NCBI GenBank assembly: GCA_017646825.1
Contig: JAGCLT010000079.1
Span: 1 to 33,843, forward strand
Length of the DNA: 33,843 nucleotides
DNA from: Clostridia bacterium
Lineage (GTDB): Bacteria > Bacillota > Clostridia > Monoglobales > Firm-18
Direction of reading: 5' to 3'
How positions within the stretch are numbered: the stretch's first letter is position 1; the number at the start of each line of letters is the position of its first letter. The notes beneath the pieces were generated by a model, which was given only the letters and a program-made list of their open reading frames with translations, was not told the DNA's origin and did not search any database. Positions 29,951 to 33,497 of this stretch are shown piece by piece. The position numbers were made by a program, and so were the translations under genes.

Positions 29951-29979
29951 TTGACATCTGTCAGAGATTGTGGTAAAAT
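29951..29979 (+). promoter_or_regulatory. Strong promoter of the L7Ae-like gene / str operon
   Basis: TTGACA (29951-29956), 17-bp spacer, TAAAAT (29974-29979) with extended -10 (TGTGGTAAAAT). Start codon 20 bp downstream. Confidence 0.82.
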
Positions 29980-29999
29980 ACTGGAGGTTTACTTCAATT

Positions 30000-30242
30000 A
30001 TGGTTGAAGAACTTAAAAGTGGCAATGTTTTGGTTGGGTTAAGACAGTTTTTGCGTGCAGCAGAAACAGGCGTAGCCCTAAAAGCATTTGTAGCAAAGGA
30101 CTGTGCGCCACATATTTTCAAAGAAATTACAGATAATTGTAATAAATACGGTATTACCGTGGAGTATATTGAAACTATGTCAGAACTTGGCAAAATATGC
30201 GGTATTGACGTAGGTGCTGCTGTTGCGGTAATCACAAAATAG
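30000..30242 (+). CDS. L7Ae/YbxF-type ribosomal-associated kink-turn RNA-binding protein
   Basis: 80 residues. GNVLVGLRQFLRAAETG, KAFVAKDCAPHI and SELGKICGIDVGAAVAVI follow the pattern of the bacterial L7Ae-like proteins (YbxF/RplGB) encoded before rpsL in the Firmicutes str operon. They bind kink-turn RNA; the in vivo role is not settled. ATG 30000 is used; GGAGG at 29983-29987 is 12 bases away, slightly far, but no better start is in frame. A longer frame from 29970 would run over the promoter. It continues towards rpsL with a 59-bp gap. Confidence 0.88.
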   Translation: MVEELKSGNVLVGLRQFLRAAETGVALKAFVAKDCAPHIFKEITDNCNKYGITVEYIETMSELGKICGIDVGAAVAVITK

Positions 30243-30301: not shown

Positions 30302-30721
30302 TTGCCAACATTTAATCAATTGGTTAGAAAAGGCCGTGAGACTTCTGTTAAAAAGTCAACTGCTCCTGCTTTGTTGAAAGGTTTTAACTCTTTAAAGAAA
30401 AAAACAACTGATAAGAGTTCTCCTCAAAAGCGTGGTGTGTGCACAGTTGTTAAAACTATGACACCTAAAAAACCTAACTCTGCTCTTCGTAAAATTGCCA
30501 GAGTACGTTTAACAAACGGTATCGAGGTTTCTGCATACATTCCCGGTGTAGGACACAACATCCAGGAACATAGCGTTGTTTTAATCAGAGGCGGTAGAGT
30601 AAAAGACCTTCCCGGTGTTAGATATCACATTGTTCGTGGTACATTAGACGCTGCTGGTGTTAATGCTCGTCGTCAGTCAAGAAGTTTATACGGAGCAAAG
30701 AAACCAAAAGAAGGTAAGTAA
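30302..30721 (+). CDS. rpsL: 30S ribosomal protein S12
   Basis: 139 residues. [12 protein letters not shown] at the start, [28 protein letters not shown] and [17 protein letters not shown] are the universal S12 motifs. The Firmicutes-type insertion before SPQKRG is present. The lysines linked to streptomycin response (in TPKKPNS and GRVKDLP) are the sensitive type. TTG start 30302 follows AGGAGGTGA at 30287-30295. S12 monitors codon pairing in the decoding centre. Confidence 0.98.
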
Positions 30722-30735
30722 GAAAGATTCTGTAC

Positions 30736-30846
30736 CAAGGTGTACGGACAAATTACAAGTAAATTAGTGCGTTTCACCGTGGTATATTTTATATATATTC
30801 GGATTATTACGCACTGACGCAATAGGTGGCTATTGCGAGTACCTTG
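30736..30846 (+). ncRNA. Structured RNA (three-way junction) between rpsL and rpsG
   Basis: Within the 157-bp gap three helices nest cleanly. P1 pairs CAAGGT (30736-30741) with ACCTTG (30841-30846), extended by two G-U pairs. P2 pairs 30764-30772 (core AGTGCGT) with 30809-30817 (core ACGCACT). P3 pairs CGCAATAG (30818-30825) with CTATTGCG (30830-30837), loop GTGG. P2 and P3 abut, and only one base joins P3 to P1. The rpsG ribosome site is ~17 bases beyond. In E. coli S7 represses its own gene by binding the rpsL-rpsG spacer, so a comparable autoregulatory site is the leading idea. No homologue was checked. Confidence 0.6.
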
Positions 30847-30878
30847 ATAATTTTTTATCATTAAAGGAGGGAAGGAAA

Positions 30879-31349
30879 GTGCCAAGAAGAGGTTTTGTAC
30901 CTAAGAGAGATGTGCTTCCAGACCCGTTATACGGAAGCAAAATTGTTACAAGATTGATTAACAATATTATGCTTGACGGTAAAAAGGGTGTTGCACAGAA
31001 AATTGTGTATGATGCATTCGACATCATTAAAGAAAAAACTTCAAAAGACCCTGTAGAGGTTTTTGAAGAAGCAATGAACAACATTATGCCTGTTTTAGAG
31101 GTTAAAGCAAGAAGAGTCGGCGGTGCTAACTATCAGGTTCCAATCGAAGTAAGACCTGAAAGAAGACAAACTCTTGGTCTTAGATGGCTTACAAACTATG
31201 CTCGTCTAAGAAACGAAAGAACTATGTCTGAAAGATTAGCGGCTGAACTTATGGATGCTGTTAACAGTACAGGCGGTGCTGTTAAAAAACGTGAAGATAC
31301 ACACAAGATGGCAGAGGCTAACAAAGCGTTTGCTCACTATCGTTGGTAA
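30879..31349 (+). CDS. rpsG: 30S ribosomal protein S7
   Basis: 156 residues, the full family length. [20 protein letters not shown] at the start, [17 protein letters not shown], and [20 protein letters not shown]-type ending FAHYRW. S7 nucleates assembly of the 30S head by binding the 3' major domain of 16S rRNA. GTG start at 30879 with AAAGGAGG 8 bases upstream and another GAAGGAA nearer. Confidence 0.98.
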
Positions 31350-31388: not shown

Positions 31389-33497
31389 ATGGGTAGAGAG
31401 TATTCACTACAGAATACAAGAAATATCGGTATTATGGCTCACATTGATGCCGGTAAAACTACTACTACTGAAAGAATTTTGTACTATACCGGTATTAACC
31501 ATAAAATCGGTGAAACCCACGAAGGTTCTGCTACAATGGACTGGATGGCACAAGAGCAGGAAAGAGGTATTACAATTACTTCTGCTGCTACAACTTGTTT
31601 CTGGGCTAAAAAAGAAGGCTCAAAAGCAGGCGTAAAACACAGAATTAACATCATCGATACTCCCGGACACGTTGACTTCACAGTTGAGGTACAGCGTTCA
31701 CTAAGAGTATTGGACGGTTCTGTTACAGTTATGTGTGCTAAAGGTGGCGTTGAACCACAGTCTGAAACTGTATGGCGTCAGGCTGATGATTATGGCGTAC
31801 CGCGTATGATTTATGTAAATAAGATGGACATTATGGGTGCAGATTTCTATAATGTTGTATCTATGGTTAAAGACAGATTACACGCAAACGGTGTTCCGAT
31901 TCAGCTTCCTATCGGTGCTGAAGATACATTCAGAGGTATCATCGACCTTATGAAGATGAAAGCGGAAATCTACTACGATGAAATGGGTAAAGAATACGGC
32001 GAGGAAGAAATTCCTGCTGATATGCTTGAAAAAGCAGAAGAATACAGAGCAAATATGATTGAGGCTATTGCTGAAACAGACGAAGATTTGATGATGGCTT
32101 ATTTAGAGGGCGAAGAAATTCCTATGGAAGACCTTAAAAAAGCTCTTAGAAAAGCCACAATCAACAATGAAATCGTTCCTATGCTTTGTGGTACTTCTTA
32201 CAGAAACAAAGGTGTTCAGCTTCTATTGGATGCAGTTATTGATTATATGCCTGCTCCTACAGACGTTGCAAACATCAAAGGTATCAATACAGATACAGAT
32301 GAAGAAGAAGAAAGACCATCTTCTGACGATGCTCCATTTGCGGCTTTGGCATTTAAAATTGCCACAGACCCGTTTGTTGGTAAGATTTGCTACTTCAGAG
32401 TATATTCAGGTAGCATAGAATCAGGTTCATACGTTCTAAATGCTTGCAAAGGCAATAAAGAACGTTTGGGTAGAATTCTACAAATGCACGCTAACCACAG
32501 AGAAGATATCTCTGTAGTATATTCAGGTGATATCGCTGCTGCTGTTGGTCTTAAGAACACAACAACAGGTGATACACTTTGCGATGAAAAACATCCTATT
32601 ATTTTGGAATCTATGGAATTCCCTGAACCCGTTATCAGAGTTGCTATTGAACCAAAAACAAAAGCAGGTCAGGAAAAAATGGGTATCGCTTTATCAAAAC
32701 TTGCAGAAGAAGATCCAACATTCAAAACTTATACAGACGAAGAAACAGGTCAGACAATTATTGCCGGTATGGGTGAGTTACACCTTGAAATCATAGTTGA
32801 CAGACTACTTCGTGAATTTAAAGTTGAAGCTAATGTTGGTGAACCTCAGGTTTCATACAGAGAAGCTATCAGAAAGCCTGTTAAGGTTGATCACAAATAC
32901 GCAAGACAGTCTGGTGGTAAAGGTCAGTACGGTCACGTTGTTATTGAGGTTGAGCCTTCAGAAGCAGGTAAAGGTTACGAATTCGTTAATAAAATTGTGG
33001 GCGGTGCTATTCCTAAGGAATACATTCCTGCTGTTGACGCAGGTATCCAGGGCGCAATGCTAAACGGTGTACTTGCAGGTTACAACGTAGTTGACGTAAA
33101 AGTAACATTGGTTGACGGTTCATACCACGAAGTTGACTCATCAGAAATGGCGTTTAAGATTGCAGCGTCTATGGCATTTAAAGATGCTTGCCGTAAGGCA
33201 GACCCTGTACTAAAAGAACCTATTATGAAAGTTGACGTAATTGTTCCTGAAGAATATATGGGTGATGTTATGGGTGACCTTAACTCACGCCGTGGACAAA
33301 TCCAGGGTATGGAAGCAAGAACAGGTGCTCAGGCAATTTCTGCATTTGTTCCATTGTCAGAAATGTTCGGTTATGCAACTTCACTTCGTTCAAGTACTCA
33401 GGGCCGTGGTCAGTATGTAATGCAACCCAGCCACTATGAAGAAGTTCCGAAGAGCATTCAGGAAGCAATCATTGATTCAAAAAATAAAAATGCATAA
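31389..33497 (+). CDS. fusA: Elongation factor G
   Basis: 702 residues. GTPase motifs: [15 protein letters not shown] (G1), [29 protein letters not shown] (G3), [10 protein letters not shown] (G4). Domains II-V follow, with [18 protein letters not shown] and [18 protein letters not shown] catalyses ribosomal translocation. AAGGAGG at 31372-31378 precedes ATG 31389; the gap to rpsG is 39 bp. There is no sign of the EF-G2 type. Confidence 0.98.

Follow-up and report, generated by a model that had tools for sequence, protein, structure and literature searches.

What does a bacterium keep in a long spacer between rpsL and rpsG, the genes for ribosomal proteins S12 and S7 of the 30S subunit? In Escherichia coli, S7 acts at this intercistronic region to repress the str operon that encodes it (PMC10931766), and, according to the same source, a similar S7 case has been proposed for cyanobacteria. 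A 2024 review describes S7 regulation as unstudied beyond these two and sees no obvious conservation of the E. coli structure despite the frequency of long rpsL-rpsG spacers (PMC10931766).

The stretch of DNA analyzed here, referred to as the window, comprises 33,843 nucleotides from a gut-type Clostridia bacterium. At its end lies a str operon consisting of an L7Ae-like gene, rpsL, rpsG, fusA, and the start of tuf, the last called from its translation. The spacer occupies 157 nt of the plus strand (30722-30878) between rpsL (30302-30721, plus strand; TIGR00981), the upstream cistron and presumed translational coupling partner, and the GTG-initiated rpsG (30879-31349, plus strand; TIGR01029), whose product is the presumed ligand and which would be the first regulated gene; fusA (31389-33497) lies behind rpsG. 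The L7Ae-like gene (29970-30242), between rpoC and rpsL, encodes a small RNA-binding protein whose best NCBIfam matches fall under the cut-offs. An initial annotation of the window had placed in the spacer a candidate autoregulatory RNA with a closed fold of three helices. The RNA proved to be real; the outline was wrong in its closing helix, P1.

Architecture of the spacer element

The 111-nt segment from 30736 to 30846 folds with -34.6 kcal/mol (z = -4.2), a stability equaled by 0 of 200 shuffles, and the entire spacer folds with z = -3.5; taken alone, folding energies of single sequences are weak evidence for structure. In the window, the element is composed of stem P2 (UUAGUGCGU/ACGCACUGA, 30764-30772/30809-30817), which carries the AU-rich apical part UUUAUAUAUA, and hairpin P3 (CGCAAUAG/CUAUUGCG, 30818-30825/30830-30837), which abuts P2 directly, all on the plus strand. 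On the 3' side of P3, and immediately adjacent to it, is the single-stranded motif AGUACC (30838-30843, plus strand; AGUA[C/A]C among relatives), followed by the small hairpin P4 (UGAUAA/UUAUCA, 30845-30860, plus strand), which separates the motif from the ribosome-binding site. The rpsG Shine-Dalgarno (SD) stretch, AAAGGAGGGAAGGAAA (AAGGAGGGAAGNAAA; 30863-30878, plus strand), is conserved beyond what is usual for an SD, in relatives as well as in the window, and the fold terminates just upstream of it, as initially described.

Relatives in the Clostridia share one plan: P2, a linker ending in A, P3 closed by C-G, AGUACC, nRUGA, a small hairpin, AAGGAGGGAAG, and the start codon. The class consensus of P2 is A[GA]UGC...GCA[CU]U. 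The closing C-G pair of P3 is invariant in 82 model hits, and the other P3 pairs are free in sequence and strongly covarying. Conservation within the element is highest in AGUACC; in 161 spacers picked for having the motif, A, G, U, A, and the last C are constant and the fifth base is C in 155. P4 varies in sequence and retains its pairing potential.

The helix P1, 30736-30742 with 30840-30846, is unconserved and forms only in the isolated 111-nt segment. When the whole spacer is folded, the minimum-free-energy structure places its 5' strand instead in a local hairpin, P0 (UCUGUAC/GUACGGA, 30729-30735/30742-30748, plus strand), and its assigned 3' strand is the invariant single-stranded AGUACC. 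Upstream complementarity to GUACC in 160 relatives is near the shuffled level (11.45 versus 10.55), and just 4 bp of P1 are left in L084 and L085, two members of the family. P0 is itself confined to the window's own family (L082 and L084 to L087); in these loci and the window, a hairpin CGUACC-AUG-GUACGG stands 5' of P2, and GUACC occurs up to three times per spacer. Two further pairings were considered and set aside: an anti-SD interaction between CCUC of the P2 3' side and GGAGG, present in some Oscillospirales only and left out of the general model, and a pairing between AGUACCUAU and the P2 loop, which is inconsistent.

Individual lineages depart from the plan in several ways. At the second P3 pair (A6 columns 132/174), and exactly there, 17 of 82 sequences have G-A in place of Watson-Crick pairing, which suggests a functional noncanonical pair adjoining the closing C-G. 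L036, L039, L040, L042, L049, L062, L029, and L068 have a 5' hairpin, CCRCA/UGYGG, whose 3' strand is common with P2 (UGCGGAG/CUCUGCA); sharing a strand, the hairpin and P2 exclude each other and could form a switch. By reading of the sequences, P3 in L198, L225, and L228 contains an internal loop, AUAAG/UGAAG, with a covarying distal stem.

Conservation and covariation

Pairing was evaluated in an alignment of 82 model-aligned sequences, 78 of which were outside the model. Both P2 and P3, which the initial annotation had drawn as adjacent, are present and recur in relatives: standard pairs fill 87.4% of their cells, compared with 68.3% in shuffled alignments and 28 to 44% with slid partners. 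The covariation score was 0.561, versus 0.197 in shuffles (0 of 500), and double changes numbered 285 versus 107. A phylogeny-aware null was obtained by redistributing substitutions along the tree, yielding 427,500 null pairs, every one of which was exceeded by five of the seven P3 pairs. P3 thus covaries beyond this null, the initial annotation having named a lack of covarying pairs as the result that would count against the RNA. The seven best pairs of the full covariation matrix are pairs of the structure, and RNAalifold independently returned P2 and P3 from the same alignment. P2 alone did not reach significance in the phylogeny-aware test because its pairs vary little in the model-selected set, where it is nearly invariant as GUGC/GCAC; its support comes mainly from a broad hand alignment, in which GUGC/GCAC alternates with AUGCGGAG/CUCUGCAU, UUUGCC/GGCAGG, and others. 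The element therefore has the conserved, covariation-backed structure of an r-leader, strongly in P3 and mainly through the hand alignment in P2.

In an alignment-free count, 73.8% of 172 spacers could form six or more P3 pairs immediately 5' of AGUACC, versus 39.0% when the upstream sequence was shuffled. G-U cells outnumber A-C cells by 62 to 2 in P3 and by 62 to 18 in P2, an excess indicating that the sense strand is the folded strand. P4 is more stable than its shuffles (Wilcoxon p = 1.6e-7, 131 distinct segments), and its stems show compensatory changes among pattern hits, as in ACCGGGU..ACCCGCAGU versus ACGAUGGA..UCCGUCAGU. Together with the distribution and gene linkage described below, these data show a conserved, covarying RNA structure of the sense strand, restricted to the Clostridia and fixed in position.

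Distribution and gene linkage

The search for relatives started from 80 loci found through rpsG together with further loci of the window's family. A covariance model of P2-P3-AGUACC was built from a hand-parsed seed of 24 sequences with trimmed loops, as MAFFT alone misaligns P3, and was developed through model R1 to R2. Selection by a model is biased to its seed, and the distribution was therefore tested also by a plain tail pattern. R2 matched 30 of 40 genomes in the order; in the class Clostridia it matched 132 of 291, with one copy per genome in all except two of the matched class genomes; in a draw of 398 genomes from the phylum, its five hits all fell inside the Clostridia. The tail pattern was found in 179 of the 291 Clostridia genomes (control hits, 2) and in 12 of 299 genomes of the phylum draw, eight in the class and four outside. 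Outside the Clostridia, the phylum draws thus gave no model match, and the 4 pattern matches there did not outnumber those of the reversed-pattern control. In Bacilli and Negativicutes, rpsL-rpsG spacers are short and unrelated to the Clostridia plan.

Sixty genomes, mostly picked as missed by both searches, were examined by way of rpsG and yielded 49 spacers: 12 shorter than 60 nt, 30 long with the motif, and 7 long without it. A long spacer in the Clostridia accordingly almost always means the element. Linkage to the genes is nearly complete: 96 of 98 model-only loci sit on the sense strand between rpsL and rpsG, in spacers of 106 to 343 nt, and so have the position of an r-leader, in the untranslated region immediately 5' of a ribosomal-protein gene. 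The two exceptions are L101, a false positive inside a coding region, and L111, which is without rpsG.

Other spacers hold features of their own. L208 and L209 (family f68) have long spacers without AGUACC and a common layout, CCUACUU...GUAGGCAGUAU...GCUACCC...GCAAGCGAUAGC, perhaps a different rpsG leader. In the 489-nt spacer of L075, the stretch GUAGAACAAGGYGCGCGAAAGAGCGAGGAGGGAACGU is repeated.

Likeness to the 16S rRNA and a candidate ligand

Clostridia 16S rRNA has at helix 43 the junction CUAGUA|AUCGCG...CGCGGU|GAAUACG, and its two strands, with the words AGUA|AUC and GGU|GAA, are part of the S7 binding site. In a word test chosen after the sequences had been seen, 10 of 182 spacers contained AGUAAYC and GGYGAA no more than 80 nt apart, while shuffled sets gave mostly 0 and, among the sets listed, a maximum of 2. 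Six of the 10 belong to a Ruminococcus-type group, in which the strands are circularly permuted and lie inside P3 (L049, ACCGGU|GAAG...GCAGUA|AUCGGU); the other four are of family f7 or similar and have the direct order (L232, CAGAGUA|AUCGA...UCGGU|GAAGC). The words are constant while the surrounding stems vary. They are absent from the window and most members, and blind scans of all spacers against the 16S rRNA gave no peak at the S7 site. A pattern search of the class draw found none of the permuted variant, whose lineage is apparently unsampled there. Generic likeness to the 16S rRNA, sought as 8-mers and helix-base words, was nothing above composition, with SD-like and AT-rich words dominating, and AGUACC as a copy of the 16S GAAUAC after helix 43, on the same hairpin side with one mismatch, was too weak to claim.

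The position in the spacer and the E. coli precedent favor S7 as the ligand, and the helix-43 junction sequences of the two lineages point to the same protein. Weighing these against the post hoc word test, the blind scans without a peak, and a window without the words, we regard S7 as quite likely the ligand. Our main reading is that the element is probably an autogenous S7 leader, structurally unlike that of E. coli, acting on rpsG-fusA translation. This cis-acting RNA would be a ribosomal-protein leader within the str operon mRNA, in which stacking of the neighboring helices P2 and P3 displays the AGUACC strand and the junction. S7 in surplus over 16S rRNA would bind the P2-P3 junction with AGUACC and hamper ribosomes coming from rpsL or initiating at the rpsG SD, which would lower translation of rpsG and, via coupling, that of fusA. 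The RNA probably acts at P4 and the highly conserved AAGGAGGGAAG, which would serve as the switching part. We infer that the outcome is repression, that the step concerned is translation, and that P4 and the SD form the switch.

More tentatively, at somewhat short of an even chance, the Clostridia may have evolved S7 autoregulation independently, with a P2-P3-AGUACC frame in most of the class onto which the helix-43 junction was grafted in at least two lineages, once directly and once permuted. If so, these would be two natural rewirings of one rRNA binding site, and the helix-43-like variants, one of them permuted, would reveal what S7 requires of the rRNA site.

Alternative explanations

The strongest competitor, though an unlikely one, is a structure without a protein ligand that tunes translational coupling between rpsL and rpsG, RNase processing and stability, or both, with the AU-rich loop of P2 as a cleavage site. 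The recurrence of that loop, UUUAUAUAUA, would fit such a role, as would the retention of P2-P3-AGUACC in spacers with long upstream inserts and the placement of a hairpin beside a very conserved SD; a generic processing or spacing element, however, would need neither an invariant AGUACC beside a sequence-free hairpin nor helix-43 words in two lineages. Were the ligand S12 instead, the rpsL product would act 3' of its own gene, which we consider improbable. The adjacency of rpsL in 96 of 96 loci is compatible with this, as is the occurrence of AGUAC in another part of the 16S molecule, in the stretch GGGGAGUACGG, but a match of five bases in 1.5 kb is what chance alone would produce, the helix-43 words match the S7 site, and the element is located at the rpsG ribosome-binding site; to our knowledge, moreover, S12 is not a primary rRNA binder.

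A DNA-level signal, whether an internal promoter, a terminator, or an attenuator before rpsG-fusA-tuf, is very improbable. Three weak promoter-like matches (shuffle mean, 0.8) and a TATA-rich loop hint at a promoter; against this, the compensatory changes and the bias of G-U over A-C require a folded sense RNA, and the element has no terminator-like site, that is, no GC-rich hairpin followed by a U run as in an intrinsic-terminator attenuator. That the fold arose by chance in an AT-rich spacer might be argued from the low evidential value of single-sequence energies, yet it is refuted by the class-wide conservation, covariation, and linkage to the genes, and we give it almost no credence.

Comparison with known regulators

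S7 initiates the assembly of the 30S head and is encoded by a gene coupled to that for EF-G. The E. coli S7 operator and the Clostridia element have in common the operon, the rpsL-rpsG spacer, the downstream gene, and, presumably, the ligand. The equivalence to E. coli drawn in the initial annotation accordingly holds for position and fails for layout and structure: in the E. coli K-12 spacer, the SD is part of a closing stem, UCCGUU/AACGGA, which encloses hairpins, whereas the Clostridia element lacks both a conserved closing stem and the two-hairpin structure, is built of stacked P2-P3 and AGUACC, and has no sequence in common with the E. coli operator. The cyanobacterial element cited in the review (PMC10931766) has the same position and a proposed likeness to the 16S S7 site.

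Other regulatory candidates of the str operon include the rpsL leaders and attenuators of Naville and Gautheret (2010; PMC2965389) and the SAR11 rpsL motif (PMC2704228). These belong to other lineages. For the most part they precede rpsL or, in streptococci, fusA, and the SAR11 motif stands before rpsG or fusA only occasionally (PMC2704228); several of the leaders and attenuators are terminators, unlike the Clostridia element. The same kind of lineage-restricted, covarying RNA beside a ribosomal-protein gene is represented by the Clostridia S4 r-leader and others (Eckert and Weinberg 2020; PMC7247131), which serve other genes, with 0 of 20 leaders for rpsG or S7.

Whether the RNA was already known had been left open initially. 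Rfam 15 gave no match at the gathering score for the window and 20 further loci, with only chance-level hits at a relaxed threshold, and we found no description in the literature consulted, though older surveys may list one. We would class the element as an r-leader at the position of the E. coli S7 operator with a different structure, apparently new. It explains the long rpsL-rpsG spacers of the Clostridia and makes the question of S7 regulation testable in one lineage.
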